This document shows, piece by piece, positions 16,391 to 54,786 of a DNA stretch of 54,786 bases. This stretch comes from Laspinema palackyanum D2c (GTDB lineage: Bacteria > Cyanobacteriota > Cyanobacteriia > Cyanobacteriales > Laspinemataceae). The position numbers and the translations under genes were made by a program. The notes under the pieces were generated by a model. It made no database searches, was not told the origin of the DNA, and saw nothing but the letters and a program-made list of their open reading frames with translations. How positions within the stretch are numbered: the first letter of the stretch is position 1; each line of letters opens with the position of its first letter. The stretch spans positions 1 through 54,786 of the forward strand of contig NZ_JAMXFD010000034.1 of the NCBI RefSeq assembly GCF_025370875.1. The letters are read 5' to 3'.

Positions 16391-16418
16391 TTTAAACCAA
16401 TAATACAGGAGCCAACAA

Positions 16419-20000: not shown

Positions 20001-20154
20001 TAAAGCAGTCCGTTCCACCAAAAAAGAGGGATGGATTGGAAATACGATGAAAGAACGAGAAATCAAAAATGCCATTCGGGGAGTCATTCGCGACCCCGAT
20101 ATTAATCTGGGAAATATTTTAGAAATAATTAAACATCAAAATGAGTATCAGTAA
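17014..20154 (+). CDS. hsdR: Type I restriction-modification system, endonuclease/translocase subunit
   Basis: 1046 residues. The N-terminal nuclease domain has the PD-ExK core (RPDIVLYINGIALGILELKR). The SF2 motor follows with Walker A QGSGKSLTM, DECHRTQSG (motif II) and IGFTGTPLL (motif III), then later motifs (VVDKLLTGFDAP, ICRVNRLD). The C-terminal helical part should bind HsdM/HsdS. The length is normal for this class. It overlaps vapC upstream and the metalloprotease gene downstream, so the operon is intact. I see no frameshift or missing motif. Confidence 0.94.
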   Translation: MSNIGQLELFTQGRIIQLFQNHLHYTYLGNWHHRKNNRNIEPELLTQWLANGGINKTLISKTLRELDQAAALGDIQNLYDANKAVYSLLRYGVKVKEGAGEQTQTIWLIDWEHPENNHFAIAEEVTIKGKNSKRPDIVLYINGIALGILELKRSIVSISEGIRQNLDNQKKEFIRPFFTTLQLVMAGNDTQGIRYGTIETSEKYYLEWKEENPLYNPNTHPKNQKYLPEIPSEIAETRLDSDLIRLCNQTRFLELLHNFIIFDSGIKKTCRPSQYFGIKAAQNALQQREGGIIWHTQGSGKSLTMGWLAKWIRENLNDARVLILTDRTELDEQIESIFKGIDEDIYQTKSSADLIRTLSTSEPWLICSLIQKFGNRQNEATDELIQTIQNQLPSNFTPKGNLFVFVDECHRTQSGKLHQAMKSILPDALFIGFTGTPLLKQDKQKSIEVFGNYIHTYKFDEAVTDGIVLDLRYEARDIDQTITTQTKIDQWFEAKTRGLSDLAKTQLKQKWGTMQKLLSSKSRLEQIVDDILLDMETKPRLMDGRGNAMLVCASIYQACKTYELFNQTQLKGKCAIITSYKPSPADIKGEETGEGNTEKLHQYEIYRRMLADYFNQPEDKAMSRVEEFEKEVKTRFIKEPGQMRLLIVVDKLLTGFDAPPATYLYIDKTMRDHGLFQAICRVNRLDGEDKEYGYVVDYKDLFQQLEGAVNNYTSGAFEGYDADDVAGLLSDRLDKAKERLEDTLETVKALCEPVPRPGNTSDYLHYFCATDTSDKTALTNNEPKRVALYQAVTALIRAYSNLANEMTEAGYTSHESQTIKAEVEHYSKMRDEVKIASGDYLDMKLYEPAMRHLLDSYIHAEPSTIVSDFEELGLIQLIVKNGLGTLEQLPAGLKNNREAVAETIENNIRKIILDESPINPKYYENMSDLLDALIEQRRNQAMGYQEYLEQVKQLAKQIIQPAGEVQANYPHSLDTPAKRSLYDNLGQDETLALAVDKAVRSTKKEGWIGNTMKEREIKNAIRGVIRDPDINLGNILEIIKHQNEYQ

Positions 20155-37111: not shown

Positions 37112-38644
37112 ATGATTGGGAAAGTTACCAAAGGAAATGATTTCACCGGCCTCCTGAGCTATGTCCTCGACAAGCCTGGGGCCAAATATATTGGGGCCAG
37201 TCGGCTAGTGGGTGAGCACTCCCATCAATGGGCAGCCCAATTCACGCGGGTTGCTGCCAAACGACGCCGGACGGAATACCCAGTGGCCCACTACAGCTTT
37301 AGCCCCCATCCCAATCAGCCGATGGCGGACGAGACTGCCTATCGGTATGCCCAAAAGTTTTGTCAGCGCATGGGCCATGAGAATTGTCAGTGGTTACTCG
37401 TCCGCCATACAGATACCAAAACCGAAAAGGGCCAAGACCGGGACCATTTTCATCTGGTGGTGAATCGCGTGACGATAGATGGGACTCGCACGGTCAGCAG
37501 CTTCAATGACTGGTATCGCTCCCAGGCGGCTCACCGAGCGCTGATTGAAGAGTTTGATTTACATCGGGTCCCCTCAGTCTGGGAGACCGATCGCCGCAAT
37601 CCCTCCACCGGCCAAATCAGAAGAGTCCGTCGCCAAAACCGAGAGTACGCCAAAGGGTCACGCTCAACACCCGCCGACCCGATTATCTTGACTGAACTCC
37701 AGGACCGGATTGATAAATTCTGCCAGGACCGACTCAGATTACCAGAGTTGGTGAGACGACTGCGAGCGGATGGGGTCAACGTTCGGATTCAACCGGCTTC
37801 AAATGGAGGGCTGGCAATTTCTTACCAACTTGGCTCGGTTGCTGCTGCGGGAAGTTCGTTGGGTCGCGCCTATACAGTGCAAGGATTACAGCAGCGACGG
37901 GGTGTCTCTTATCAGCCGGGATATGACAACCCGGTTCTCAAGCTGCTTTTAAAAGAACAGTGGTATGAGCGGGCCTCTTTTTCTAACCCGGGCGATCGCC
38001 AAGGAACCCGACAAAAACCCAGATCAACCGAACCGACTCCAGGCGATCGCCAAGAACCCCAACAAAACCCTGAGCCAACCGCACGGGAGTTATCCCCCAC
38101 GTCACCAGGACCAACTCCAGGCGATCGCCACCGAACCGAACAAAACCCCGACTCAACCGCACCTCCGTTATCCCCGGCGTCGTCAGGACCGACTCCAGGC
38201 GATCGCCAACTTCCCCCCAAAAACCCCCCATCAACCGGACCTGAATTATCCCCGGCGTCAGCATCAACGACTCAATCCAAACCGGACATTTTGAATGAGG
38301 AGGAATATCGGCAATGGTCCCGCCAGGTTGCCCCCATCCTCGATGCTTATCTCCAGCACCGGGGTGTTCCGATTATCCAAGGTCACCGCTTCCGGACTTA
38401 CAAGCGGGGTAAGTACCTTGTCTTGGAATATCGAGATGGCTCGGACACTCTGCTCTTATGCCGACCGACTGGTAACGGGTCCTGGGAGACTCCCCAACAG
38501 TTTCCGGTCAAGATCAACCGCGAGGACGCCAAATATATTGTTGAACAGTCCATCCCGCTGATGCAGCAAGATATCAGGCAACGTCAACAACGTTCTCAGA
38601 ATAAGAAGCGCTCTCGTTCTAACCAACTGGATCTCTCGGATTGA
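37112..38644 (+). CDS. Relaxase/mobilization nuclease
   Basis: 510 residues. The N-terminus MIGKVTKGNDFTGLLSYVLD includes a candidate nucleophile Tyr17. The metal motif is DHFHLVVNRV (H112, H114), with a preceding acidic and His segment (VRHTDTKTEKGQDRD). These features match the PF03432 relaxase fold. The enzyme would nick oriT and pilot the strand; no type IV secretion genes are present, so the plasmid would be mobilised by others. Residues about 290-390 are four Pro-rich repeats, each starting GDR (GGCGATCGCCA in DNA), then a conserved C-terminal domain. No accessory mob gene is seen. Confidence 0.9.
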   Translation: MIGKVTKGNDFTGLLSYVLDKPGAKYIGASRLVGEHSHQWAAQFTRVAAKRRRTEYPVAHYSFSPHPNQPMADETAYRYAQKFCQRMGHENCQWLLVRHTDTKTEKGQDRDHFHLVVNRVTIDGTRTVSSFNDWYRSQAAHRALIEEFDLHRVPSVWETDRRNPSTGQIRRVRRQNREYAKGSRSTPADPIILTELQDRIDKFCQDRLRLPELVRRLRADGVNVRIQPASNGGLAISYQLGSVAAAGSSLGRAYTVQGLQQRRGVSYQPGYDNPVLKLLLKEQWYERASFSNPGDRQGTRQKPRSTEPTPGDRQEPQQNPEPTARELSPTSPGPTPGDRHRTEQNPDSTAPPLSPASSGPTPGDRQLPPKNPPSTGPELSPASASTTQSKPDILNEEEYRQWSRQVAPILDAYLQHRGVPIIQGHRFRTYKRGKYLVLEYRDGSDTLLLCRPTGNGSWETPQQFPVKINREDAKYIVEQSIPLMQQDIRQRQQRSQNKKRSRSNQLDLSD

Positions 38645-38741
38645 GGCGCTCGCGGCATAGTGTTCTGATACCCTGCCCAGTCTCCTTGAGGCGATCTCAC
38701 CGAGAGCATCAAAACCCAGCCACCGGGTTACCGAGTACCTG

Positions 38742-39095
38742 GTCTAGTTTTGGTCTACAGTGTTGTCTACTAACAGGCCAGGTAATTGTAAGCGCCCACC
38801 TCAACTCCAAAGGATGATCCGGGTCTATCCCTCGTCTACAATTTTGTCTACTGGAGGGAGCCAGCCTGGGTCTATTTCCCGTCTATAACCTTGTCTACTT
38901 CATGGCCGTTCCCCGCCTAATTTTTCGTCTATAACCTTGTCTAGTTAAGGGAGTCAATCCAAGTCTAGCCTCTGTCTATCCCCTGCCTAGACTACTATGG
39001 GTCACAGGGGTCAATACGGGTCTAACTGCCGTCTACAATCCTGTCTAATTTAGGGAGCCAACAAAAGTCTAGTTTTCATCTATAGCTTTGTCTAC
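38742..39095 (+). repeat. Iteron array: 18 GTCTA sites in phased triplets
   Basis: GTCTA occurs at 38742, 38753, 38765, 38823, 38834, 38846, 38870, 38881, 38893, 38927, 38939, 38963, 38974, 39020, 39031, 39043, 39067 and 39090, all in one orientation. Nearly all spacings are multiples of about 11.5 bp (11, 12, 23-24, 34, 46, 58), so the sites lie on nearly the same DNA face. Triplets recur, several followed by GGGAGYCA. The array lies between the relaxase and the RHH gene. Confidence 0.85.
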
Positions 39096-39102
39096 AAAAT
39101 CT

Positions 39103-40137
39103 CTAACCCTTCGACTCAACGGGATAGTAGCGCTCTTTTTGATAGCTCCAGGCGATCGCTTCCGGGTCCTGTTGGCTGGTCCATTTGGCAAAGGCGTTCG
39201 TGCCTTTTTTCTTGCGGTTGGTGGTGATGCTCGATGGGCTGACCGACAGCCTTGAGGCCAACTCCCGGCCACTGAGTCCTTGAGTAGTGAAGTCCAACGA
39301 TTGGTCTACTCCGAGCTCAGATTCTGGGGACCGGCTGCGATCTCGAACGGTTGCTTTCTCTAACCCCAACTCTCCCGAGGTTGCCAATTCCTCCCCATCA
39401 ACCGAGTCTCCCGCCGCCTCTACTCCAAGCTCAGATTCTGGGGAAGCGTGGCGATCGCCCCCGGCTACTTCCTCTAACCCCAACTCTCCCGAGGTTGCCT
39501 GAACCTCGCCCTCAACCGCATCATCCCCGGAGTCTCCCGCAGCCTCTACTCCATCCTCAGATTCTGGGGAGCCGTTGCGATCGCCCCCGGTTACTTCCGC
39601 TAACCCCGAGTCTCCCGAGGTTGCCAATTCCTCCCCATTAACCGCATCATCAAGCGCATCATCACCCGAGTCTACCGGCGCGTCTACTGGTGCGTCTACA
39701 CCCACCCGGGCAACCTCATCTACCGGCGCATCAACCAAGTCTACTGGCGAGTCTACTGGTAGGTCTACATCCACCGGGGCAACCGAGTCTACCTCCCCGT
39801 CTCCCCCGTCTAGCGGTGCGTCTACATTTTTATCTACATTACGAGAAGACAGCCTGATTTCCAATGCTTTCAACCGTTCCTCTAGGGTGCGAGTCACCGA
39901 ATGTATCGCCTGAGCAACCGCAGCGTCTACAAGGGATTGAAGGGAGGCCGTCGTCTGAGGGGATGGCGGTTCTATTCCCAGGTACGCCTCAATCGCTTGG
40001 ACGATAAATTCGCTGCGACTCCTATCCTGCCGGGCCTGATCAATCTGGGCCAACAGTTGGGGAGTGGTCCGGACATTCACCTGGGCGCGTCCCGATTTGG
40101 ATGATTTCGCCTCGGCTTTTTTGGAGGGTCGGCTCAT
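39103..40137 (-). CDS. RHH DNA-binding protein with VDAPVD repeats and C-terminal HTH; candidate centromere/iteron binder
   Basis: 344 residues, ATG 40137 with AGAGGAAAA upstream. Residues about 17-55 (QVNVRTTPQLLAQIDQARQD, then SRSEFIVQAIEAYLG) are a ribbon-helix-helix domain. A helix follows, then a long acidic repetitive part: VDAPVD units (about 100-160) encoded by GTAGAC repeats in 12-bp steps, and ELGLEEVxGGDRxxSPESE units. The C-terminus has an HTH (LSGRELASRLSVSPSSITTN). The gene is surrounded by and contains the GTCTA/TAGAC motif, so it probably binds it. ParR/parC is the best known parallel. Confidence 0.7.
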   Translation of the reverse strand: MSRPSKKAEAKSSKSGRAQVNVRTTPQLLAQIDQARQDRSRSEFIVQAIEAYLGIEPPSPQTTASLQSLVDAAVAQAIHSVTRTLEERLKALEIRLSSRNVDKNVDAPLDGGDGEVDSVAPVDVDLPVDSPVDLVDAPVDEVARVGVDAPVDAPVDSGDDALDDAVNGEELATSGDSGLAEVTGGDRNGSPESEDGVEAAGDSGDDAVEGEVQATSGELGLEEVAGGDRHASPESELGVEAAGDSVDGEELATSGELGLEKATVRDRSRSPESELGVDQSLDFTTQGLSGRELASRLSVSPSSITTNRKKKGTNAFAKWTSQQDPEAIAWSYQKERYYPVESKG

Positions 40138-40159
40138 GTTTTTTCCTCTATCTTGAAAA

Positions 40160-40280
40160 GTCTACACTGAATCTATCATCAGTCTACAGTGAATCTATAA
40201 CCCGTCTACAATCAATTGATAATTAGTCTACAGTGAATCTACCCTCAGTCTATAATCAGTCTACAACCAATCCGGCATCA
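40160..40280. promoter_or_regulatory. Eleven 11-bp repeats upstream of the RHH gene
   Basis: From 40160 every 11 bp a unit of the form (G/A)TCTAYARTSA begins: 40160, 40171, 40182, 40193, 40204, 40215 (degenerate), 40226, 40237, 40248, 40259 and 40270 (degenerate). The array ends 23 bp before the RHH start codon (40137), so it probably overlaps the promoter and serves autoregulation. Further single sites occur at 40370-40420 and about 40802-40830. Confidence 0.85.
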
Positions 40281-40391
40281 CTCCCCTAGAATTTTTCACT
40301 CCACTCTACTCCTCCGGCTGTAACCTTTGATTTAGTTGGGGATTGAGGCGTCACCTCCCCTTCAAGTGTAGACAAACAAGTAGACTACTAT

Positions 40392-40676
40392 TCAATCCTG
40401 TAGACGTTCGTTTTCTTCTTCCAACTCGGTGAGCCGTAACCGGAGTTCCGCCAGCGCCACCCCGATTTTCTCCTCCACAGAATTGATGCGGTGGTTGAGC
40501 CGATTAGCCTCGGTTAAATCCAAATCCTCATCGCAAAGGGGTAATCCCTTGACGAGGCACTGGCGGATGAAAATGGAAATTTGCTCCGTGGCGGTGGTCC
40601 CCTCATTCTGGCAAAGGGCCACAAAAGGTTGCCATTCTTCTGGATCCATCCGAAGTGAAATCGGTTTGCGGTTCAT
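40392..40676 (-). CDS. Small RHH/coiled-coil protein, 94 aa
   Basis: ATG 40676. The start RKPISLRMDPEEWQPFVALC is a ribbon-helix-helix-like strand and helix. The second half is a coiled coil (RINSVEEKIGVALAELRLRL, then TELEEENERLQD). It lies upstream of the larger RHH gene on the same strand, with the 11-bp array between them, so it may be a second partition or copy-control protein. No family name can be given. Confidence 0.65.
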   Translation of the reverse strand: MNRKPISLRMDPEEWQPFVALCQNEGTTATEQISIFIRQCLVKGLPLCDEDLDLTEANRLNHRINSVEEKIGVALAELRLRLTELEEENERLQD

Positions 40677-40904
40677 AGCTTGTCGTTCCCCACGTCTATA
40701 CGGTTAGCATACAACGCCAATACACTGTTGCCAATACAAACGTATGACAAAAAGGGGGATTGCCGATACAGGGCCTTGGATGACTAGGGTCCTTTGAGGG
40801 GGCGTCTACTTGATTTAGGGTAGACTGGTGTAAATAAGGGAACACTTGTTTACACTCAAGCCCCCCTAACCGTTAACAAGGACCCACTACGCGAGGGAAT
40901 CAAC

Positions 40905-41636
40905 ATGGCCCCTAAAGGTTTTGATAACAGCACTGTCATTTATATTCGGGTATCCACGGATGAGCAAGCTAAAGAAGGGGTCTCTATCCCGGCACAGGTA
41001 GAAAAACTGGAGGCCTATTGTAAACAAGCGGGACTCCGAATTGTTCAGGTCGTTATTGATGATGGGGTCAGCGCAGGGAAATTCCTCTCAACTCGTCCCG
41101 GTGGGAGCCAGTTGGTTGAGTTGGTCCGGTCGCGCCAGGTCAAAAATATTGTGGCGGTGAAACTTGACCGACTGTTCCGGAGTGCCGCCGATGCCCTCAC
41201 CAGCGTTGACAATTGGGACAAGCTAGGGGCATCCCTGCACCTGTTGGATTTTAACGGAATGAGCTTGGATACGTCCAGCCCGATGGGGAGGATGATGCTG
41301 ACGATGATCGCCGGTTTTGCCGAACTCGAAAGAAATCTCTGTAAACAACGGACTAAAGACGCTATCCAGCACAAGAAAAACTGTAAACAAGTTTACTCCC
41401 GCCCTGTCTATGGTTACGTCACTGATGAGTTTGGACAAATGGTAGAGGACCCTTCTGAGCAGGAAGCGATCTGCATCATGAAGGCCATGAAGGCAGCCGG
41501 GTCAAGTTTGAGGGCAATCTGTGCCCAGTTAACCGAGTTAGGGTTCCAAACTAAACGGGGAGGGAAAATCTGGTACGCGGCAACGGTTAAGGGCATCCTG
41601 GAGAATTCTCTACATCAGGAGGTTGCAGCATCATGA
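40905..41636 (+). CDS. Serine recombinase (resolvase family)
   Basis: 243 residues, ATG 40905 with GAGGG upstream. IYIRVSTDEQAKEGVSIPAQ holds the catalytic Ser; KLDRLFRSAADAL and GRMMLTMIAGFAELERNL are the conserved Arg and dimer segments. After the catalytic domain comes a short recombinase-type domain (RPVYGYVTDEFGQMVEDP), then an end near 243, shorter than large integrases. A plasmid resolvase role is likely. Its res site could be in the gap 40677-40904, which has GTCTA sites but no obvious paired repeats. Confidence 0.9.
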   Translation: MAPKGFDNSTVIYIRVSTDEQAKEGVSIPAQVEKLEAYCKQAGLRIVQVVIDDGVSAGKFLSTRPGGSQLVELVRSRQVKNIVAVKLDRLFRSAADALTSVDNWDKLGASLHLLDFNGMSLDTSSPMGRMMLTMIAGFAELERNLCKQRTKDAIQHKKNCKQVYSRPVYGYVTDEFGQMVEDPSEQEAICIMKAMKAAGSSLRAICAQLTELGFQTKRGGKIWYAATVKGILENSLHQEVAAS

Positions 41637-42574
41637 TCATCAGGCTAGAAGATAGAGTCCTGGAGTTAGTAGAGACCCATAGGTGACTTAAACAGACTAT
41701 GCCGAATGACCACCCATTGCCCGAATGTTATCCCGTGGAATTTTTATCAAGTGAGCGAGATTTATCAGCAACGCCGCTAGACCTGGGGTAAGCCTTGAGG
41801 AGAAAATCCCTCCCAATGAGGGGATTTTTCATCAATCCATTCCCCCTCCGCTAAAAAATTCCCTCACTGAGAGGGTGTTTTTGAGGCAGCCTAAGAAGAA
41901 ATCCCTACCCACCGAGAGTAAATTCCCCAAGCCCACTCCCCTTACAAGAATAGGTTTTTTACATTTAACTGTACCTCTTGTCCCCTCTCCTTGGCAAGGG
42001 GAGGGCCTCAGATGGGAGCCTGCCTGTTTGGGTGAGGGCTAGTGCAACATATTATACTACATTTTGAGTGTGGAATGTGGGCTTAATAGCATACTCATGG
42101 AGTACAATCATGATGTTTAGATAGGAAGATGGAGCAAATAATCGTCATATACCCTCGGTAATTCACCTGAACAAAACAACTTACTCAAATTACGCTTGCA
42201 TCTGACCGGCTGGGGAAAATTCATCAAGATATTGAGCAGTACAAGTTTGTCATCCCTGAATAGATAAGCTGTACCAACTTGCATTGATAGTAATAGTATG
42301 CTTTACAATTTCGGTAGCTCGATTGATGGAAAGTAATCAGAATCGTCATAATATCGCTCAAACACAAACGGCGCAACCGTTTGCGGCGTCACAGTCTACG
42401 TCCTAGCAACTGGCGTTCCCAATGGAGTTTCAAGATTCGGCAGAAGTCATCGACGGAACCGAACAAATCTCCTACACTCAGCATGGGGCAAACAGATCTG
42501 TGAAAATTCAGCACTTTCAGCCTATCTAGTTGGCTCCTGTTTTATCCCGAACTGACGTTGTTTAGGAGTACCAA
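41637..42574. other. Gene-free region before the lasso cluster, with terminators and a solo IS/MITE end
   Basis: Two or three CCCTC/GAGGG hairpins with T-runs (41804-41829, 41858-41885) follow the resolvase. At 42048-42081 a sequence nearly equals the end of the MITE at 48158 in inverted orientation (TACTACATTTTGAGTGTGGA type). From 42300 there are short frames (26 and 36 codons) that do not resemble precursors. The lasso promoter must lie in this region. Confidence 0.5.
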
Positions 42575-43051
42575 ATGTTCTGGTTGAAGTTATTAATTCG
42601 TAAAGCTTACACTTTTCAACAGCTTGACAGGAACGAGCGCGTGCTGTTACTCCAAGCTTTAGTATTGCTGCCGGTAGTGGCGTTATTGCTGAAAATCTGG
42701 GGACTGAAGCACACCCAAGCTACTCTAGCAAGGCTAGCAGCTATGCCAATGATACGAAGAGAAAGCCAAAGCAGCGAGCGCTTGCCTCAAATTACGAGTG
42801 CAGTTCGCATGGTACGAACTGCTGTCAAGTATTACGGTTCTTGGGCTAACTGCTTGAAAAAGTCTCTAGTCTTATGGTATTTGTTACGTTGTCAGGGGAT
42901 TGAACCCGAATTGCGAATTGGGGTACGAAAAGAAGCGGGTAAGTTTGAGGCTCATGCTTGGGTAGAGTATGAGGGAATAGTTTTAAACGATACAGCGGAT
43001 GTGCGCTCACGCTTTGTGATGTTTGATCGCCCTATAAAAGCACTACCCTAA
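42575..43051 (+). CDS. Lasso peptide biosynthesis B2 protein (leader protease)
   Basis: 158 residues, ATG 42575 with TTAGGAGTACCAA upstream. An apolar helix (LLLQALVLLPVVALLLKIWG) precedes the transglutaminase-like protease domain with Cys93 (WANCLKKSLVLWYLL), His127 (EAHAWVEYEG) and Asp139 (VLND), the catalytic triad of B2 proteins. It cuts the leader from the precursor once the B1 protein has bound it. It is the first gene of the cluster, and the ABC gene once followed directly before the IS insertion at 43084. Confidence 0.9.
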   Translation: MFWLKLLIRKAYTFQQLDRNERVLLLQALVLLPVVALLLKIWGLKHTQATLARLAAMPMIRRESQSSERLPQITSAVRMVRTAVKYYGSWANCLKKSLVLWYLLRCQGIEPELRIGVRKEAGKFEAHAWVEYEGIVLNDTADVRSRFVMFDRPIKALP

Positions 43052-43103
43052 TCGCTCCTGGCGATCAACAAGCAACATTTCATCCCACATTCCCCAGGTT
43101 GAT

Positions 43104-43346
43104 TTAAAGTTGAACTCCATTAGCCGTAAGCAGGTGAATAGACTGAAAACATTGAAAAATCCATCTTAAAGTAGGAGTGGCGGTGGGTTTACCTAACTGA
43201 TTCTTAATCGATTTTTTGGCTTGAGCTAGGGCTGACCTTAATTCTCTTTCCCCTAAGCTGTACACTAATAAGCAGAGTCCCATTACCATAGCTAGTGCCG
43301 CAACTCGTTGAGTATTTTTTAGAAAAACATTATCTGTAAAAAACAT
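43104..43346 (-). pseudogene. IS1634-like transposase, C-terminal fragment
   Basis: Ends RVAALAMVMGLCLLVYSLGE, then QLGKPTATPTLRWIFQCFQS, the conserved C-terminus of DUF4277-containing IS1634 transposases. It begins abruptly inside the element, and the central catalytic part is missing. It pairs with 43937-44389. Confidence 0.75.
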
Positions 43347-43444
43347 AGGGTATTTTTAAAATCGAACAATTTTAAAAAACATTCGCCTAGCTGTAATCGA
43401 GTTCCATTCGCTTTTTCAGTTGAATCAGCCTCTACGCTACCTCC

Positions 43445-43984
43445 TTCATAGATGAAACCCGAATTGGACGCAAGACGCAAACGGGTCGGATGATTACCGC
43501 AAGGGGTGTCAAACCGATTGCAAAAGTCCAATGGCCGCGAGAAGCTTGAAGGCTATATGGGATAGTTGAACCCTATTCCGGGTGGCACTTTACCCAAGAG
43601 TACGACTCGCTCAACAGTACAAACTTTCAAGCCTTTATTGATGCAATCTCTGAACAACTAGGTGATACCATTGCGGTGATTCAACTAGATGGGGCATCCG
43701 CCCATAGAGCTAAAGCCTTGGAATGGCCTGAGAATTTAATTCCAGTGTTTCAACCGCCTCACAGTCCCGAACTGAATCCGATTGAGAGGCTATGGGAATT
43801 CCTCAAGAGCCTATGAAAAGGAGAGAACTTTGCCTCGCTCCAGGAGTTACGCCAGCGTGTGACTAAAGAACTAGAAATGCTTACCTCAGAACAGATCCAA
43901 TTTTTAACATCTTACAACTTTATCCTCGATACGTTATTAGCTACTAAGTTTGATCCGGTTGGGTTTCATCTTGTGCCAGCTTAA
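43445..43984 (+). pseudogene. IS630-family transposase fragment nested in the IS1634 element
   Basis: The frame gives FIDETRIGRKTQTGRMITAR, then GWHFTQEYDSLNSTNFQAFI, VIQLDGASAHRAKALEWPEN, and HSPELNPIERLWEFLKSL: the DDE core of IS630 transposases. There is a TGA at 43547 and another after EFLKSL, and no N-terminus. It lies on the opposite strand between the two IS1634 pieces. Confidence 0.75.
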
Positions 43985-44389
43985 ATTTAATTGATATAAG
44001 TGTAAGGTATCAGTGTTGACTCCTTCTGTTTTACTCGCCGCTAGAGCAATCTTTACAAACAGTTGGGTTAGTCCTGCTTCATGGAGGGGATCAAGCACTC
44101 TCCCAAGTTGGTCATCATTCAGGTGTTCTGGACGGACCCCTTCTCCCAAGAGGTGTTCTGTCGCTTTTCCCACAAAGAACTGGTCAAATAAGTACATTGG
44201 GACACTGACTAAGCCCAACCCATTGATAATCATAGCTTTGACTGCTATTCCCGCGCTGACGAGTTCTAACGGGTGGCTTCCTAGTTCGCGATTGAGGGTG
44301 TCTACCAGTAATAGGCGATCAATGATGCCTGCCACTATACCCAAGTGGTCAATGTCTTGTACACTAATGTCAGATGCTATCCCTGTCAT
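43937..44389 (-). pseudogene. IS1634-like transposase, N-terminal fragment (DUF4277)
   Basis: Starts MTGIASDISVQDIDHLGIVA and continues GVRPEHLNDDQLGRVLDPLH, then EGVNTDTLHL, typical of the N-terminal DUF4277 of this family. After TDTLHL the sequence no longer fits, at the junction with the nested IS630 fragment. The start is 32 bp inside the right inverted repeat. Confidence 0.75.
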
Positions 44390-44440
44390 CGTTAAAAAAA
44401 TATTCTGACTGTCCTATTTTACCTGCGGAACGTGGGTTTC

Positions 44441-46243
44441 ATGCCTAGATTTCAACTTCAGTTGCTTCAAAATATCAAACGAGCAACCCAATTAGTTTGG
44501 CAAAGCGCCCCTGGCTGGACGATTGCTAGTCTGGTGCTGCTTCTGGTTCAGGGTGTATTACCCTTGCTCTCTCTGTATCTGATGAAATTGCTCGTCGATA
44601 CCGTCACAGTGGGAATAGCTGAGCCTGACAAAACAATAATTTTCAGGCAGATTCTCTTATTAATCACCTTAGTAGGCATTGCCACCCTTGTAAGCGACTT
44701 CTGCCGCTCCCTAGGCAACTTTACCACTGAAGCACAATCTCAAGTCGTGACGGATTACGTCCACGATATGCTTCATGCTAAATCGATTGAAGTTGACTTA
44801 GAGTATTACGAAAACGCCCAATATTACAATGCCCTACACCGCGCTCAACAAGAAGCAGCCTTTCGTCCGCCTCGCATCCTTACCAGCTTAATTCAAGTCG
44901 CTCAAAATGCGGTTTCCTTAGTTGCGATTGCGGGTTTATTATTATCCTTACATTGGAGTATTGGTGCAATATTATTTGCGGCTGCCGTTCCTGGGTTGCT
45001 GGTGCGCCTCAAACATACGGGAAAGCTTTTTCAGTCGCAGCGCGGTTGGACAAGTTTAGAAAGAATTGCTTATTACTTTCATTGGATGCTCACCCACGAT
45101 ACCTATGCCAAAGAAGTCCGCTTATTTGACTTAGGTTCTTTATTTCGCACCCGCTATCGCCACTTACGCCAGGAAATTCGCCAACAAAAACTAATCTTGG
45201 CGCGTCAGCGTTCCATGACAGAACTCGCCACGCAGGCTTCTGCCACTTTAGCTATTTTTGCTGCTTGCGGTTTTATCGCCTTCCAAACCGTGCAAGGTGC
45301 AATCACGTTAGGGGGACTGGTGATGTATTACCAGGCATTTCAGCGGGGACAGGGATTTTTGCGAGAAATGTTGAGCAGTGTTGCCAGTTTGTATGAAAAT
45401 AGCTTGTTTTTATCGAATCTGTATGAGTTTCTCGACTTAAAACGCGCGATCTCAGAACCTCTTCATCCCCAACCCATGCCGAAACCGTTACAAATCGGTA
45501 TTGAGTTTCACAATGTTGGGTTTCACTATCCTCACAGCAGTCGCGCCCTATTAGAGAATATTAACTTAACGATTAAAGCTGGGAATATAGTGGCTTTAGT
45601 TGGGGAAAATGGAGCCGGAAAGACCACTTTAATTAAGCTTTTGTGCCGGCTTTACGAGCCAACGAAAGGAAAAATTACCTTCGATAACATCGATTTGCGC
45701 CAACTGACAACAACAGATTTGCGGCGGGAAATTAGCGTTGTCTTTCAAGATTACGTTCATTATAATCTCACAGCACGGGAAAATATTGGGTTCGGTAATA
45801 TTGATTTGTTAAGCGATGACAAGCAAATTGTAGCAGCCGCCCAAGCCGCTGGAGCAGAAGTGGCGATCGCTAAACTGCCTCGCGGTTACGATACCACCCT
45901 GGGAACCCAATTTGACCAAGGGGAAGAACTAAGTATTGGTGAATGGCAGAAGGTCGCGCTTGCGAGAGCTTTTTTGCGCCAATCCCAGATTATCATTTTA
46001 GATGAGCCAACTAGCGCCCTAGATGCTCAAGCTGAATTCGAGGTTTTTGAACAATTTCGCCAACTGACTCGCGGCAAAACCGCTATTTTGATTAGTCATC
46101 GTCTTTCAACCGTGAAAATGGCAGATCGCATCTTTGTTTTAAAAAATGGGAGCATTGTAGAAAGTGGCTCTCATTGGGAATTATTAGAATTAGGTGGAAC
46201 TTACACCCGCTTGTTTGAAATGCAAGCCAAAAATTATCAATAA
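44441..46243 (+). CDS. Lasso peptide ABC exporter (fused TMD-NBD)
   Basis: 600 residues from ATG 44441; a GTG three codons upstream lies in the IS end and is unlikely. The N-terminal half has about six membrane segments (SLVLLLVQGVLPLLSLYLM, NAVSLVAIAGLLLSLHWSIG). The ATPase half has Walker A GENGAGKTT (about 390), LSIGEWQKVALARAFL (signature) and IIILDEPTSALDAQ. It should export the mature lasso peptide and give self-immunity. The IS inserted exactly upstream, so the native ribosome site may be lost; it is now led by the IS end. Confidence 0.9.
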   Translation: MPRFQLQLLQNIKRATQLVWQSAPGWTIASLVLLLVQGVLPLLSLYLMKLLVDTVTVGIAEPDKTIIFRQILLLITLVGIATLVSDFCRSLGNFTTEAQSQVVTDYVHDMLHAKSIEVDLEYYENAQYYNALHRAQQEAAFRPPRILTSLIQVAQNAVSLVAIAGLLLSLHWSIGAILFAAAVPGLLVRLKHTGKLFQSQRGWTSLERIAYYFHWMLTHDTYAKEVRLFDLGSLFRTRYRHLRQEIRQQKLILARQRSMTELATQASATLAIFAACGFIAFQTVQGAITLGGLVMYYQAFQRGQGFLREMLSSVASLYENSLFLSNLYEFLDLKRAISEPLHPQPMPKPLQIGIEFHNVGFHYPHSSRALLENINLTIKAGNIVALVGENGAGKTTLIKLLCRLYEPTKGKITFDNIDLRQLTTTDLRREISVVFQDYVHYNLTARENIGFGNIDLLSDDKQIVAAAQAAGAEVAIAKLPRGYDTTLGTQFDQGEELSIGEWQKVALARAFLRQSQIIILDEPTSALDAQAEFEVFEQFRQLTRGKTAILISHRLSTVKMADRIFVLKNGSIVESGSHWELLELGGTYTRLFEMQAKNYQ

Positions 46244-46261
46244 CAGAATTGGGGATTATAC

Positions 46262-47470
46262 ATGACTGTTTTAACAGAATCAATCGCCTTCCAAGACTCA
46301 ACTCAATTTCCACTAGAAATTGATCTGCTGCTTTGCTGTTGCCGTACTCAGATGTCGGCTGAATATGCTGCTAGAATTCATCAATTAGTTCAACAAAACA
46401 TTAATTGGAATTACTTAGTTAATACTGCCCGCCGACATGAAGTCATCCCTCTACTTTACTGGCAGCTTAAGAATGTTTGTCCAGAAGCTGTTCCTCAAGA
46501 TATCCTTAACAAGCTTCGCAGCGCCTTTAGTGCCAATGCTAAAAAAAACTTAGCGATAACAGTAGATTTAGTAAAAATTTTAAATCTTTTTCAGAATCAT
46601 AACATTCCAGTTATTGCATTAAAAGGACCTGTTTTAGCCTGTTATGCCTACAACAACCTGGGTTTGCGAACTTTTGTAGATTTAGATATTTTAGTCCCAG
46701 AAGAGTTTGCTTTAGCAGCGATAGATTTGTTAACCGAGCACGGCTATGAACGGATGTATAAGTTTAAAGATTTCCAGATCCCAAGGTATATCAAGTTGAG
46801 AAATGAGCTGGCGTTCGTCTTTGAAAGTAAAAATTTTTCTATCGATTTACACTGGGCTTTAATGCCAGAGCCTTTGCGTTCTGTTTCTAAGCTTTTAAGC
46901 TATGAGAATCAAGAAATTTATATCGGCAGCAATAAATTTAAAATTCCAACTCTTTCGGCAGAAAGCTTGCTGTTATTTCTTTGTATCCATTCTACTAAAC
47001 ACAGTTGGTCGTCCTTAAAATTTGTTTGCGATTTAGCGGAAGTGATTCGCTCTAAGCCCGAACTAGATTGGAAATTGATAGAGTCACAGGCAGAAAGTCT
47101 GGGAACTAAAAATATTCTGTTTTTAGGTCTTTATCTTTGTCAAGAGTTGCTAGGTACAGTGCTGCCTAAAGAAATTTCTCAAAAACTTGAGGCAAATCCA
47201 CAGCTTAAAATCTGGATTTCTCAAATTAAACAACAACTTTTTGAAGCGGAAGGAAGAATTAATTTTTTCAAAAAACATAGGATTTATCTGCAAACATTAT
47301 CTTGGAAAAATAAGCTTTCGTTCTATTTTAATACTTTAGTCACTCCTACCCCTTACGAGTTAATCATGGTATCCCTTCCGGATTGGTTATTTCCTCTATA
47401 TTATTTACTGCGCCCGATTCGGATGTTCGTTAAGTACAGCAATCGCCTAATCAGTGGAAGTGGTGCCTAA
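46262..47470 (+). CDS. Nucleotidyltransferase-family protein (NTP_transf_5) of the lasso cluster
   Basis: 402 residues, 18 bp after the exporter. The segment VIALKGPVLACYAYNNLGLR, then FVDLDILVPEEFALAAIDLL has the GP...R..xDxD pattern of this nucleotidyltransferase family, followed by SIDLHWALMP and an apolar C-terminus (WLFPLYYLLRPIRM). Members accompany HPr-kinase-like genes in lasso clusters. In the pseudomycoidin pathway such an enzyme adds sugars to the phosphorylated C-terminus. The same role here is inferred, not seen. Confidence 0.82.
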   Translation: MTVLTESIAFQDSTQFPLEIDLLLCCCRTQMSAEYAARIHQLVQQNINWNYLVNTARRHEVIPLLYWQLKNVCPEAVPQDILNKLRSAFSANAKKNLAITVDLVKILNLFQNHNIPVIALKGPVLACYAYNNLGLRTFVDLDILVPEEFALAAIDLLTEHGYERMYKFKDFQIPRYIKLRNELAFVFESKNFSIDLHWALMPEPLRSVSKLLSYENQEIYIGSNKFKIPTLSAESLLLFLCIHSTKHSWSSLKFVCDLAEVIRSKPELDWKLIESQAESLGTKNILFLGLYLCQELLGTVLPKEISQKLEANPQLKIWISQIKQQLFEAEGRINFFKKHRIYLQTLSWKNKLSFYFNTLVTPTPYELIMVSLPDWLFPLYYLLRPIRMFVKYSNRLISGSGA

Positions 47471-47595
47471 GTTTTGGTTTAGAACTCATCCCTATTTCCA
47501 CTTGAAATCTTATGGAAATATTGTGGCAGCGTTAAACAAATCTAATCCAGAAGTTTGTGCCATCGCATCGTACTATTGTTTTTAGCAATAAATTC

Positions 47596-47622
47596 CCCTT
47601 CTACTTTATATTGAAGGGTCTT
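47596..47622 (+). terminator. Terminator after the exporter/nucleotidyltransferase unit
   Basis: CCCTTC and GAAGGG pair around an 11-nt AT-rich loop and are followed by TCTTT. It lies 126 bp after the nucleotidyltransferase gene and before the convergent precursor gene. Confidence 0.5.
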
Positions 47623-47733
47623 TCAATCGACAACTTCCTCGGCTCTCCTGAAAAAACGCCAACATTGAGCTAAACTTTGATGCGTTTGTCCTGTGATTAC
47701 TACTTTTCCTCTGATTAAAGTGATAAAAAAGCG

Positions 47734-47913
47734 TTAGCTTGCGCTTATAATAGGCGGGCCACCATCAAACCCAGGGCCAGGGTTGTTTAAGGTATTCTCA
47801 ACGGCAGATAATTTAGTTAAGGTGGGAGTTGACCAGGGTTCTTTTACCTGGTTACTTTGAGTCGAATTGGAAGGTTGTTTGGATGGGTCTGTCGTGGAAA
47901 AATTGGAGTTCAT
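47734..47913 (-). CDS. Lasso peptide precursor, 59 aa
   Basis: A short gene on the strand opposite its neighbours, too small for standard gene calls. Leader residues 27-41 read WSTPTLTKLSAVENT, matching the lasso leader pattern (aromatic-x-x-P-x-L ... T at position -2). After T41-L42 the predicted core is NNPGPGFDGGPPIISAS (43-59): Asn1 would close onto Asp8 to give an 8-residue ring, leaving a 9-residue loop and tail. The last residue is Ser, the known target of the HPr-kinase-like lasso kinases, one of which is encoded at 50733-51623. No Shine-Dalgarno is evident. TTGACT lies about 70 bp upstream as a possible -35. Confidence 0.82.
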   Translation of the reverse strand: MNSNFSTTDPSKQPSNSTQSNQVKEPWSTPTLTKLSAVENTLNNPGPGFDGGPPIISAS

Positions 47914-48157
47914 GGGTTTTATCTGTAAGGCTAGATCTTTGGGTGTTACAATTTATCTTACCTTAATAAGTCAATAGATAAATCTAAGTAGGTGAACATA
48001 AATAAACATAAAAAGAACCTAACACACCAACATCCTTCCCTAGTAGGTAAGGAGAAAATCAACTCAAATCACCTTCCCTACTCGACGCGGGGAGGGAAGG
48101 AGAGGTCAACTGATGGAGCCTAGGATTCTACGTTTAATTGGGTCTACCTACTTATAA

Positions 48158-48352
48158 CCCACATTCCGCACTTCAAAATGTAGTATATTATGCTAAGCAT
48201 TCAAAGCTTTTTACGAAAAAAGCTTTGAATGCCGTGATAAGTAAAAATACATACTACATTAACTATTGAGATTAAATTTCAACTATAGAAGCTGTGATCC
48301 ACTTTTTCCGTTAAAACACATCTTGTAGTATGCTTGAAGTGCGGAATATGGG
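48158..48352. mobile_element. 195-bp MITE related to the IS1634-like element
   Basis: Ends CCCACATTCCGCACTTCA and its inverted copy (one mismatch) match the IS1634 end at 43084 in the outer bases. The flanks are TTATAA on both sides (48152-48157, 48353-48358), a 6-bp duplication as for the IS. Inside is a perfect hairpin (GCATTCAAAGCTTTTT around ACG, 48197-48232) and no gene. It lies between the precursor and the B1 gene. Confidence 0.8.
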
Positions 48353-48424
48353 TTATAACATAGTTGAACAACTAAAGTCAAGTAAAACCTTGGCTGGATT
48401 GCGTAAAAAATTCAGGTTTTAACA

Positions 48425-48739
48425 ATGTCCGAACCCTTACAGACTTCTTCTGGTAAACAGTCTAATCTAAGCCTAGCAACGGTTGTGGTTCAAAACCCTG
48501 ACCTGTTGGATTGCGAACTGGATGAAGATTTGGTATTGATGAGTATTGAGAATGAAGCCTATTACGGGATGAATGGGATAGGTAAGCGCATTTGGTGGGC
48601 TATGGCCACCCCAGTTTCCGTGCAAGCCCTCTGCGAGCAGCTACAGCAACAGTTTGAGGTAGATCCTTTAGCCTGTGAGAACGAGGTAATGAATTATCTC
48701 AATACCCTGCTTGTAGAAGGGTTGATTCACGAAGTCTAA
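48425..48739 (+). CDS. Lasso peptide biosynthesis B1 protein (PqqD-like RRE)
   Basis: 104 residues with the PqqD fold: LDEDLVLMSIENEAYYGMNG, then IGKRIWWAMATPVSVQALCE and EVMNYLNTLLVEGLI. The protein binds the precursor leader and delivers it to B2 and the cyclase. A separate B1 and B2, rather than a fused B protein, is usual for cyanobacterial and Gram-positive clusters. The cyclase gene follows after 51 bp on the same strand. Confidence 0.9.
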   Translation: MSEPLQTSSGKQSNLSLATVVVQNPDLLDCELDEDLVLMSIENEAYYGMNGIGKRIWWAMATPVSVQALCEQLQQQFEVDPLACENEVMNYLNTLLVEGLIHEV

Positions 48740-48790
48740 AAAAACTATCAACAGCCTCTAAGAGAACACAAGAGCTAGGATTTATCAAGG

Positions 48791-50704
48791 ATGAGCGCAC
48801 TCGTTGGCTTTTTTCACCGCAATGGGGCACCTGCCCAACCGCACGGGTTAGATTGGATGATGAGAGCCGTTGCTCACCGAGGTGTGGACTCTAGCGGAAC
48901 CTGGTGCGAGGGTTCGGTAGCCTTTGGACATCAGATGATGTGGATTACCCCAGAATCGCAGGAGGAAAAACTGCCCCTGGTGAATCAACGGGGAGATTTA
49001 GTCATTACGGCAGATGCCCGAATTGATAATCGCCAGGAGTTGTGCGTTCGCCTCAACATTTCCCCCGCAGAAGCCAAACACCTGCCCGATAGTGCCTTTA
49101 TTTTGGCAGCTTATGAAAAATGGGGGATAGATTGCCCTAAATTTTTACTGGGGGACTTTGCTTTCGCTTTGTGGGATTCTCGCGAACAACGATTGATCTG
49201 CGTGCGAGATCCAATGGGAGTGAAAATATTGCATTATTATCAAACTCCTGAGATTTTTGCTTTTTCAACAGAAGCAAAAGGTATTCTTGCTTTACCTGGT
49301 GTTGTTAAGCAGCTTAACGAAAACAAGCTCGCTGACTGGTTAATTGGCAACTTTAATAATCAGTTGAATCCAGAGGCCACCTTCTTTCAAAATATTCATT
49401 ATGTGCGTCCTGCCCATACATTGGTAATAGAGGCAGAGCGAATTGTAGCTTACGAATACTGGCAACCAAACTCTTGGCAACCATTGCCTTATAAACATGA
49501 CGAGGAATATCTAGAAGCCTTTAGGGAATTATTTGCCGATGCATTAAAGTGTCGCTTACGAAGTGCCTACCCGATAGGTGTGTTGCTCAGTGGCGGATTA
49601 GACTCCTCTGCGATCGCTTGTGTTGCAGCCTCTCAACTGCGCGAGCAAGGCAAAGAATTGATTCCGGTGGCGGGAATACTGCCAGAAAATTACCAGGGAA
49701 TCGCATCAGATGAACGGGAATTTGTCGAGGCGGTTTGCCAACAGGAAAATCTTCAGCCGCTTTATGTTTCAGCAGCTGGAAAAAGTCCTTATAAGGATTT
49801 AGATCGCCATTTTTTCTACGAAGAAAGCCCTATTGTCTGGTTTTATTATTTGCATGATGCGTTGCAAGCAGCCCTCGCCCAACAACAGGTTCGTACTGTT
49901 TTTCATGGCATAGGGGCAGAACTCGGCCCATCTTCTCACGGCAAGGGCTATCTGCCCGATCTCTTTAAAAATCTACACTGGCTAACTTTAGGGCAAGAGA
50001 TTGCCGCCGTCGCACAACTACAAAACCGTAAGTGGTGGCGCGTCTTCGGTGGAGATGTTGTTCTACCGTTGTTCTCGATTCAAAGAAAACCTTATCTTTT
50101 AAATCAAATTAGCCCGATTAATCCCGATTTCGCTCGTGAGTTGGGGTTAGGAAACCAACTGCGTCGTGGAACCTATCTCCAGGATTCATTCCCAGTTTCT
50201 ATGTTAGAGCGCGAGATTTATGCAATTAAGGCAGTTCAAGGTGCAACATCCGAAATTTGGTATCACCATCACTTAACCTGGGCTTTGCCGTATTATGATA
50301 TTCGTCTGCTTGCTTTTTGTTTAGCGGTGCCTGCCCATCTCAAGTTTAAAAACGGTTGGAACCGGAACTTAATTCGGCTCGGTATGGAGGGCATTTTACC
50401 CAAAAAAGTACAATGGCGACCCGATAAGGTAGCATTCTCTCCCGATTATCACTCACGTTTGTGGAAGTTTGGACAAGAAGGAATTCTCCTGCTAGACGAA
50501 ATCGAGCGTGATTCGCTAGCTTATCATTACTTAGACATTCCAAAGATTCGCCAGATGCTTTATGAATATACCCAATCTCCAGATCCAACTTATCAGAAGC
50601 CCATTCTTAAGCCTCTAACTTTGCAGTTATTTATACACGGAGGCGTGATTGCCAGCCAGTTCTTAAATTGGTTTGAGAAGTTGACTCCTTCCGTAGATTT
50701 ATAA
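48791..50704 (+). CDS. Lasso cyclase (asparagine synthetase-like)
   Basis: 637 residues. The N-terminal glutaminase-like domain (AHRGVDSSGTWCEGS near 28) lacks a Cys at residue 2, so it does not use glutamine, as is normal in lasso cyclases. The synthetase domain has SGGLDSS (267-273), which activates the ring Asp as acyl-AMP. It then joins that side chain to the N-terminal amine of the core. The length and motifs are complete. Its 3' end converges with the kinase gene 28 bp away. Confidence 0.93.
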   Translation: MSALVGFFHRNGAPAQPHGLDWMMRAVAHRGVDSSGTWCEGSVAFGHQMMWITPESQEEKLPLVNQRGDLVITADARIDNRQELCVRLNISPAEAKHLPDSAFILAAYEKWGIDCPKFLLGDFAFALWDSREQRLICVRDPMGVKILHYYQTPEIFAFSTEAKGILALPGVVKQLNENKLADWLIGNFNNQLNPEATFFQNIHYVRPAHTLVIEAERIVAYEYWQPNSWQPLPYKHDEEYLEAFRELFADALKCRLRSAYPIGVLLSGGLDSSAIACVAASQLREQGKELIPVAGILPENYQGIASDEREFVEAVCQQENLQPLYVSAAGKSPYKDLDRHFFYEESPIVWFYYLHDALQAALAQQQVRTVFHGIGAELGPSSHGKGYLPDLFKNLHWLTLGQEIAAVAQLQNRKWWRVFGGDVVLPLFSIQRKPYLLNQISPINPDFARELGLGNQLRRGTYLQDSFPVSMLEREIYAIKAVQGATSEIWYHHHLTWALPYYDIRLLAFCLAVPAHLKFKNGWNRNLIRLGMEGILPKKVQWRPDKVAFSPDYHSRLWKFGQEGILLLDEIERDSLAYHYLDIPKIRQMLYEYTQSPDPTYQKPILKPLTLQLFIHGGVIASQFLNWFEKLTPSVDL

Positions 50705-50732
50705 GCCCCTCGCCACGAAACCAATCATCAAT

Positions 50733-51623
50733 TCATATATTTATATCTTCGTCCACTCGGTTTGCCAATTCGTCTAGCAAAAACAGATGCTGTGGGCGAA
50801 CGATGCGCGTGATTCGGGTTGTCTTAGCCACGAGTGTCGTTATTTGAAAGTGTAACAAATGTAAATTTAAACCGCGCAGCCATTCCTTACGATAATAATG
50901 CTGGTACAACGATGTAAACCTGTGCATATCCTCGACAGCCTCAAGTTGGATATCTTGCCCCTGATGGGATTCAAGCACGTAGATAGCATAAAGCGGCACG
51001 GATTGGCGACAAAAGCAATCTACTCTTTGAATATATTTGTCTAGGTTGGGACGCACGCGCGGCAGATCTGAGAAAGAATAGTTAAGTTTAGCGACTGCCT
51101 CAGCCCACAGTCGGGTGCTAGGGTAGCCTGGAATGACTAAGGGATATCCCTCCTCATCCAAGACAATCGCTGTTTTATCATCGGCGAGCATTGAGTAGCC
51201 TCGTTGTAGCATCGCTGCTAACAGTGTAGATTTGCCTCTGCCAGAATACCCCGTAAATAACACCGCCCCTCGCGCCGTTTGGATGGCGCTAGCATGGAGA
51301 ACTAGGATTTTTCGCTGGTTCAACAATGCCCCTACTGCCGAACCCAATAAAAAGGCACGCACGTCTGTTTCTACACTACCCGCTGCCGGTTCAATCCAGA
51401 TTTCGCAGCCGTCGCAAACCAAATACCGCGCCACATCTTTAACATTCAGTAGCAATTTGCCAGGGTTCGCCTGCCAACTTACACCTTCATCGCGTGGGTT
51501 AGATAATGCAGTGGGAACATCCCCATACTGAATGAGGACGTCTGGCTTGGAGTTGTCATCTGGTAGGAACTCTGGCAAGGGTATGACAGATTGCCATTGG
51601 AGATTGTAAGCGAGGTAATTCAT
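50733..51623 (-). CDS. HPr-kinase-like lasso peptide kinase
   Basis: 296 residues. Walker A GYSGRGKST (125-133) is preceded by LHASAI (H110) and followed by MLADDKTAIV (148-150), the order seen in HprK-type serine kinases. Members in lasso clusters (for example that of paeninodin) phosphorylate the C-terminal Ser of the precursor. The precursor here ends in Ser. The gene faces the cyclase and is probably transcribed from its own promoter to the right. Confidence 0.88.
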   Translation of the reverse strand: MNYLAYNLQWQSVIPLPEFLPDDNSKPDVLIQYGDVPTALSNPRDEGVSWQANPGKLLLNVKDVARYLVCDGCEIWIEPAAGSVETDVRAFLLGSAVGALLNQRKILVLHASAIQTARGAVLFTGYSGRGKSTLLAAMLQRGYSMLADDKTAIVLDEEGYPLVIPGYPSTRLWAEAVAKLNYSFSDLPRVRPNLDKYIQRVDCFCRQSVPLYAIYVLESHQGQDIQLEAVEDMHRFTSLYQHYYRKEWLRGLNLHLLHFQITTLVAKTTRITRIVRPQHLFLLDELANRVDEDINI

Positions 51624-51877
51624 CAGTGAGGGCTGGATAATGAGAATATGGATTAGGGTAAATCTTTATGCAATTTCCGCCTTGTAAATCTAATCATATC
51701 CGTAAAAATGGTAAACACCTAGTGCAGGGTTGCGAAAGAACATGAGCAGTTATAATGGAATGAGCGCCCAGCCACCCTATGCCGTTGGCTTGCCGTTAAC
51801 GTTGTCTCCTGCCTACGCAACCGATAATGCCTACTCCAAAAGCCAAAACCTGCACAACATCTACCCGTCAACGCTAG

Positions 51878-52012
51878 ATTTTAGAGGAGATCGCCGCTCG
51901 GGTCACCAATACCCATCAATTAGTGAGTTGGGCACAATTAGTTCTGTATGCGGCAGCATCCATGAATAACACTGACATTAGCAAAAAGTTAAACAATCTG
52001 TCGGGCCCTAGT
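51878..52012 (+). pseudogene. N-terminal fragment of an IS630-type transposase
   Basis: The frame reads LEEIAARVTNTHQLVSWAQL, then VLYAAASMNNTDISKKLN, the homeodomain-like N-terminus of IS630 transposases, and then runs in frame into the yhaV remnant. There is no start and no DDE part. The preceding 250 bp after the kinase gene have a 79-codon frame (51730-51969) without recognisable features. Confidence 0.55.
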
Positions 52013-54447: not shown

Positions 54448-54786
54448 TTACTGTAAGCGCCAGCGTTGATCTGTCTGTGAGCCATTATCACCATTACGCC
54501 CAGATGTTTCACAGTCCCAAAGTAGGAGTCTAGCACCATTCGTATTGCCAGGAGCACCAGCTACATCGATGCACTTGCCAGACAAAGTATTCCTGATAAA
54601 TCCATCACTGGTTAATGACCACCGTTGATCTGTCTGTGAGCCATTATCACCATTACGCCCAGATGTTTCACAGTCCCAAAGTTGGAGTCCAGCACCATTC
54701 GTATTGCCGGGAGCACCAGCTACATCGATGCACTTGCCAGACAAAGTATTCCTGATAAATCCATCACTGGTTAATGACCACCGTTG
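54448..54786 (-). CDS. Ricin-type beta-trefoil lectin repeats, 3' end of the hydrolase gene that wraps to 1-1022
   Basis: The minus strand enters from the right edge in frame and ends at a stop at 54448. It encodes two nearly identical 53-residue repeats, each with SGKCIDVAGAPGNTNGA, LWDCETSGRNGDNG and the QRW signature of ricin-B folds. A beta-trefoil needs three such repeats, and the third lies at the left edge. The repeats are almost identical as DNA (159-bp period), so they were amplified recently or are kept alike by gene conversion. That is also why an assembler could miscount them. Bases 54767-54786 duplicate bases 1-20. Confidence 0.8.
   Translation of the reverse strand, partial: QRWSLTSDGFIRNTLSGKCIDVAGAPGNTNGAGLQLWDCETSGRNGDNGSQTDQRWSLTSDGFIRNTLSGKCIDVAGAPGNTNGARLLLWDCETSGRNGDNGSQTDQRWRLQ

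Follow-up and report, generated by a model that had tools for sequence, protein, structure and literature searches.

Does a 59-codon open reading frame (ORF) lying upstream of a lasso-peptide cyclase gene, and on the opposite strand to it, encode the precursor of a working cluster, and if so, how did it come to lie there? The locus that raises this question is located on contig NZ_JAMXFD010000034.1 (assembly GCF_025370875.1) of Laspinema palackyanum D2c; all 54,786 nucleotides of the contig were analysed, and this full stretch is hereafter denoted the window. We consider it probable (approximately 0.72) that the window is a circular, mobilizable cyanobacterial plasmid with a complete, probably working lasso cluster as its cargo, and that in this cluster the opposite-strand precursor was derived by inversion.

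Biosynthetic genes and the precursor

An earlier reading, made from the letters of the DNA by itself (hereafter the sequence-only reading), had assigned six proteins and a precursor to the cluster. Profile matches identify all six proteins, and the genes are arranged as follows:

42575-43051, plus strand: B2 leader peptidase, transglutaminase-like (NF033537, 99.6 bits, cut-off 33)
44432-46243, plus strand: ABC exporter (profile match)
46262-47470, plus strand: NTP_transf_5 nucleotidyltransferase (PF14907, E 5e-61)
47734-47913, minus strand: precursor gene A, 59 codons (leader codons 1-42 at 47788-47913; core NNPGPGFDGGPPIISAS at 47737-47787)
48425-48739, plus strand: B1, PqqD-like leader-binding protein (PF05402, E 2e-14)
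48791-50704, plus strand: lasso macrolactam cyclase, asparagine-synthetase-like (NF033535, 513 bits, narrowly below the cut-off of 525)
50733-51623, minus strand: HprK-like kinase (HprK_rel_A, 37 bits, E 1.7e-9, far below the 200-bit cut-off)

B1 scores 75.6 bits against the lasso model NF033536, narrowly below its cut-off of 80. The active-site Cys and His of B2 (C96 and H130, numbered in the stop-to-stop frame) and the SGGxDS motif of the cyclase are retained; B1, B2 and a lasso cyclase, the gene content by which a lasso cluster is recognised, are thus present with active-site residues and, to judge from these matches, the window holds a complete set of lasso-peptide genes in a shuffled order. 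The precursor and B1 genes are positioned head-to-head, 511 bases from start to start, and the precursor and nucleotidyltransferase genes tail-to-tail, 263 bases apart. The precursor gene overlaps neither neighbour, such that the term 'antisense', applied to it in the sequence-only reading, holds in the sense of opposite strand.

The comparison set comprised 40 cyanobacterial regions, each surrounding a match to a cyclase or a precursor, in which both strands were searched alike, and the precursor set comprised 43 placements including that of the window, one peptide being counted in two regions. A [YW]xxPxL leader, Thr at position -2 and Asp or Glu at core position 7-9, the features expected of a lasso precursor, are all found in the 59-codon ORF. 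It is the sole ORF in the window that fits a strict version of this pattern ([YWF]xxPxL, 6-11 residues, Thr(-2), an acid at core position 8-9, a core of 13-30 residues and an upstream start codon), and by this pattern no better precursor was found elsewhere in the cluster. When the peptide was aligned to the 42 other placements, ten gave scores that lay 6.2-7.9 standard deviations (s.d.) above those of shuffled versions of the peptide. The profile search that the sequence-only reading had recommended for the precursor matched nothing among the Pfam or NCBIfam models. Two weak matches besides the window itself emerged from a search of 99 relatives; one (E 0.006; genome G415, regions L033/L050) combines a comparable leader with adjacent B1-like and nucleotidyltransferase matches, with no cyclase match found in the 16-kb region, and the other (E 0.098) is L034. 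As a separate observation, the lasso-like precursor of L050 (7595-7756, minus strand), which has no cyclase match in its region, perhaps gives rise to a linear modified peptide.

The leader carries a more specific signature. Gly occupies the tenth position of the [YWF]xxPx[LIVMF] block in 39 of the 43 placements and is absent from four, namely those of the window (WSTPTLTKLS), L035 and L099 (both WLAPELNKIA), and L103 (WLAPELNKIS); the window leader is accordingly of the type W..P.L.K[IL][AS], without Gly. The only other Gly-less placements belong to the same clusters whose B1, cyclase and kinase group with those of the window, which is sister to exactly L035, L099 and L103 in midpoint-rooted FastTree trees of B1 (0.975), cyclase (0.994) and kinase (0.996). 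These three clusters are from genomes G213, G425 and G456, respectively, of one genus in the same cyanobacterial order as the window's host. On the strength of homology and the leader signature, the opposite-strand ORF is very probably the real precursor, and the remark in the sequence-only reading that it is easily missed is borne out.

L035 and L036 overlap on a single contig (G213 contig 36) and have two different cyclases. Two lasso clusters adjoin there; across both stretches, only a single B1/B2 pair and a single exporter gave matches, and the kinase match of the first cluster is divided over two overlapping ORFs.

Gene order, mosaic structure and plasmid context

The strand count kept 33 of the 40 regions, those with both a cyclase and a recognisable precursor; L044, L046, L048, L049, L052 and L053 (no recognisable precursor) and L050 (a precursor-like ORF, no cyclase) were excluded. 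In all 33, the precursor follows the nearest cyclase on the same strand, at a distance of no more than 1.2 kb and in most cases no more than 0.4 kb; the arrangement in the window, the only compared region with a precursor opposite to and upstream of the cyclase, is therefore exceptional. A candidate opposite-strand precursor in the sister cluster of G213 was rejected, the precursor there sharing the cyclase's strand. The comparison with other cyanobacterial clusters called for by the sequence-only reading has a divided outcome: the kind of cluster is known and its tailoring genes are common (within the fetched stretch, a kinase match in 32 and a nucleotidyltransferase match in 22 of the 33 regions), whilst its strand arrangement has no counterpart amongst them.

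The three sister clusters all have the order kinase-B1-B2-cyclase-precursor on a single strand. Inverting the B1-to-cyclase segment of this order gives precursor(-) B1(+) cyclase(+) kinase(-), which is the order in the window, where B2 is absent from between B1 and the cyclase. We infer that the window order arose from such an ancestor by one inversion of the B1-cyclase segment with loss of the native B2, and that the opposite-strand precursor is most likely a derived state. The lost B2 would have been substituted by one from another lineage, with the exporter and nucleotidyltransferase genes placed on the other side.

Further features of the window that bear on its origin are:

37112-41636, plus strand: plasmid mobilisation region (relaxase 37112-38644, resolvase 40905-41636)
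43104-44389, unstranded: DUF4277-type insertion-element relics (both ends, no middle), between B2 and the exporter
47729-47746, minus strand: terminator-like hairpin and T-run, overlapping the precursor stop codon
48152-48358, unstranded: element of 207 bases resembling a miniature inverted-repeat transposable element (MITE), between the precursor and B1, with 25-nt inverted ends that are 96% complementary

The nearest relative found for B2 is that of L045 (55% identity), its sister in the tree (0.927). The exporter is nearest to that of L092 (78%; sister, 0.979), the next group out being L036, L099 and L103 at 0.804, and the nucleotidyltransferase is nearest to those of L092 (50%) and L089 (42%), with weak tree support (0.205 and 0.683). 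The G+C content of the nucleotidyltransferase gene is 36.6%, compared with 44.8-48.0% for the remaining cluster genes. The ends of the DUF4277-type relic are related to copies elsewhere in the genome, and an IS630-like piece, judged by eye, lies inside it. An end relic related to the MITE-like element is located upstream of B2 (42048-42081); a search of the host's own genome at E 1e-5 found no further copy of this element outside the contig. The cluster thus looks like a mosaic, with a foreign B2, a low-GC nucleotidyltransferase and insertion-element relics. The hairpin at the precursor stop codon is weak evidence, as shuffled versions of the region contain 1.0 such sites on average, compared with the one observed, and a similar site occurs near 35 of 820 random positions; cyanobacterial lasso precursors are not as a rule followed by one (5 of 43 are, the window counted). 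Nothing in Rfam matched within 42000-52000.

The contig encodes ParA, a relaxase, a resolvase and a D5/primase-like protein, and parts of the region from 36.1 to 41.4 kb match the mobilizable Oscillatoria acuminata plasmid pOSCIL6304.02 (84.6% identity, in four pieces amounting to 16% of the 24.8-kb query). A 159-base repeat is present twice at the right end (54460-54786) and recurs, over 143 bases and at 96.5%, at the left end (1-143), which suggests a circular plasmid broken inside a repeat array; the window looks like a whole circular mobilizable plasmid. No cyclase was found at E 1e-80 in seven congeneric and six further family genomes, as expected if the cluster is plasmid cargo. Searching genome contigs for relatives of the window cyclase gave seven loci, the top identity being 33%, and among plasmids the cyclase matched four records (29-39% identity). 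Previous reports describe natural-product clusters carried by cyanobacterial plasmids, mobilizable ones among them (PMC8600333, in the portion available). The same plasmid carries type I restriction-modification genes and a large NACHT protein (12061-20154 and 31199-34468).

Predicted core peptide and its modification

The core, NNPGPGFDGGPPIISAS, comprises 17 residues and ends in Ser, with a predicted ring between Asn1 and Asp8. Core, ring and Thr(-2), all put forward in the sequence-only reading, are supported by the comparison of placements; Thr(-2) with an acid at 7-9 is readable in 32 of the 42 others (with several readings in some, and some of them spurious) and in none of the remaining 10. 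Its view that Asn is unusual as the first residue is not supported in this setting, since L091 likewise predicts an Asn1-Asp8 ring and core position 1 takes G, A, S, Q, K, R, E and others. The rings predicted for the sisters are Ser1-Glu9 (L035, L099) and Gly1-Glu9 (L103). In the L036 and L045 precursors, the acid preceding a shared GG sits 11 residues past the usual Thr-Leu cut; L045 has a further Asp at 8, and L036, which has no acid at 7-9 from this cut, may depart from the standard cut site or ring. The L089 and L092 clusters each have two nucleotidyltransferase genes, and their precursors contain an ESIETTxPAKRC stretch with no convincing Thr(-2)-ring reading.

A C-terminal Ser is found in 16 of the 43 placements, compared with 8.8% Ser over the preceding 24 residues (the sequences are related, so this comparison gives no true probability), and in all three sister precursors. 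The kinase retains the His-Lys-Asp-Asp residues, a motif described in the available part of PMC9266682 and conserved in 32-33 of 33 kinases; by sequence, HPr kinases are its sole matches among solved structures (E 0.008). An HprK-like kinase with this motif, together with a C-terminal Ser in the precursor, are the sequence features of a paeninodin-type system, in agreement with the sequence-only reading, and by this analogy the Ser is reasonably likely to be phosphorylated by the cluster kinase.

The nucleotidyltransferase, recognised by its PF14907 match, has an apparently intact active site (K121, G122, D140 and D142 are invariant in 20 of 20 aligned sequences), a feature expected of pseudomycoidin-type modification. 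By sequence, its matches to solved structures are unrelated ones only, at E of at least 0.11. Its predicted model (mean predicted local distance difference test score, pLDDT, 87.6) resembles the Pol-beta-type enzymes MenT1, LnuA and ANT(2'')-Ia, with TM-scores of 0.61-0.70 by target length and of 0.28-0.34 by query length, about half of the protein being covered. Given this predicted likeness to genuine Pol-beta-type folds, the addition of a sugar, as predicted in the sequence-only reading after a phosphorylation step that we regard as likely, becomes one of two readings: the second step on the phosphate may add either a nucleotide or a hexose. Both a glycosyltransferase and a true nucleotidyltransferase likewise remain readings for PsmN, with which hexoses appear in E. 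coli (PMC9266682, in the same part).

In the pathway that we propose, the W..P.L leader would be bound by B1, and the C-terminal Ser of the precursor phosphorylated by the kinase, by analogy with paeninodin. B2 would then cleave after Leu42, leaving Thr at -2, and the cyclase would form the bond between the amine of Asn1 and the side chain of Asp8, closing the ring around the tail. The phosphate would subsequently be modified by the nucleotidyltransferase, with either a nucleotidyl group or, as reported for pseudomycoidin, a hexose, and the product, presuming that the genes are expressed, would be exported by the ABC protein. Calculated [M+H]+ values are 1578.755 for the lasso, 1658.721 for its phosphorylated form and 1820.774 with one hexose in addition; for a nucleotide in place of the hexose they are 1987.774 (AMP), 2003.768 (GMP), 1964.746 (UMP) and 1963.762 (CMP).

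Alternative explanations and comparison with known systems

The opposite-strand ORF could have arisen by chance, with the true precursor located elsewhere or lost. The usual precursor site, directly after the cyclase, offers just 28 bases before the kinase stop codon, and dinucleotide shuffles of the entire window gave 83 strict-pattern hits in 400 shuffles, with at least one hit in 77 of the 400; such hits being frequent, the strict pattern alone is weak at the scale of the window. Within the 954-base gap between the nucleotidyltransferase and B1 genes, a looser pattern (both patterns were composed only after the ORF had been seen) was found in 69 of 3,000 shuffles. The strict pattern, however, appears in 16 of 10,000 shuffles of this gap, and its sole hit in the window is a peptide that, aligned with ten real precursors, exceeds its shuffles by 6.2-7.9 s.d. 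and that bears a clade-specific leader signature. Homology supports the precursor more strongly than does the pattern, the signature being on these comparisons the best evidence, and a chance origin is very improbable.

Several other observations weigh against a complete, working cluster derived by inversion. The cyclase has Val for Leu and Glu for Asp at two columns that are at least 95% conserved among 45 cyclases, a consensus scan of 47400-48500, around the precursor, gave no promoter-like sites where shuffles gave a mean of 2.4, and the 1.4 kb separating B2 from the exporter holds insertion relics. These points, along with the element between the precursor and B1 and the shuffled gene orientations, mean that the cluster could be decaying: a remnant disrupted by insertion elements, which makes no product and whose genes are intact only since the events were recent. 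All seven ORFs are open, however, the inspected active-site residues are retained and the leader still fits the B1 clade, and we consider decay unlikely. As to phosphorylation, 27 of the 43 placements lack a terminal Ser, although 32 of the 33 other regions have a kinase match; the kinase alone is therefore no predictor of a terminal Ser. The searches returned no close homologue of the precursor. With regard to ancestry, no inverted repeat linking the two supposed breakpoints is among the repeats listed. The sister clusters are all of one genus and their cyclases are 94% and 85% identical to that of L099, such that the Gly-less leaders represent two lineages rather than four independent cases. 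The whole peptide, moreover, scores higher against L036 (z 7.9) and L045 (z 7.3) than against the sister precursors (6.2-6.4), and may be a hybrid or a member of B2's lineage. These scores, the highest and third highest, would also suit a fusion of two half-clusters at the MITE-like element with no inversion, in which precursor, B2, exporter and nucleotidyltransferase genes like those of L045, L036 and L092 were joined to the B1, cyclase and kinase genes of another lineage; the sister relationships of B2 (L045) and of the exporter (L092), the position of the element exactly at the join and its related end relic at 42048-42081 fit this history too. The Gly-less leader, in contrast, links the precursor to the B1/cyclase/kinase lineage, the exporter may be native given that its next group out includes L099 and L103, the grouping of the nucleotidyltransferase is weak, and no single relative is indicated by B2, exporter and nucleotidyltransferase together. 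Such a fusion seems doubtful to us.

We therefore favour the complete cluster reordered by inversion, a rearranged plasmid-borne member of a known peptide type; its best points are the signature in the leader, the mosaic make-up and the inversion that we regard as likely. A bolder scenario, which we put forward only tentatively and hold to be rather unlikely as a whole, is a distinct lasso subclass spread by plasmids, in which the leader lost the Gly kept by all other cyanobacterial precursors examined and B1 changed with it. Insertion elements would here swap B2, nucleotidyltransferase and exporter genes and re-orient the precursor, a foreign B2 would serve the B1-cyclase pair, and the product would be an Asn1 lasso with a nucleotidylated, not glycosylated, phosphoserine.

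The cluster offers an instance from nature of recombination among lasso modules (the leader peptidase, the leader-binding protein, the cyclase and the tailoring enzymes) on a mobile element, and bears on whether a B2 can function with a foreign B1-cyclase pair. Genome mining limited to the cyclase strand and its downstream side would overlook this precursor. Given the predicted nucleotidyltransferase fold, the question of sugar or nucleotide on the phosphoserine is directly addressable by mass.

Amongst known systems, the sister clusters of G425, G456 and G213 share the B1/cyclase/kinase clade, the Gly-less W..P.L.K leader and a Ser-terminal precursor with the window; they differ in having the precursor just downstream on the cyclase strand, their own B2 between B1 and the cyclase, and other predicted rings. 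In the microcin J25 system, the B protein is fused. Its precursor gene is divergent from the B-C-D genes, a precedent for opposite-strand lasso precursors, and it is described as a four-gene system, hence one without a kinase or nucleotidyltransferase (available part of PMC13361873). Paeninodin (Paenibacillus) resembles the window cluster in its split B1/B2 (PMC5067487), in its kinase with the His-Lys-Asp-Asp motif and terminal Ser (PMC9266682) and in the W of its leader motif (PMC13381572), as far as the available parts of these sources extend; within these same parts, a nucleotidyltransferase is not mentioned for paeninodin itself. In Bacillota, W versus Y in the leader determines the choice of RRE (PMC13381572, same part). 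Pseudomycoidin, from Bacillus pseudomycoides, belongs to a different phylum; it and the window cluster, with its predicted chemistry, have in common the kinase, the nucleotidyltransferase and a terminal Ser as the target (PMC9266682 and PMC8498205, in the portions available).

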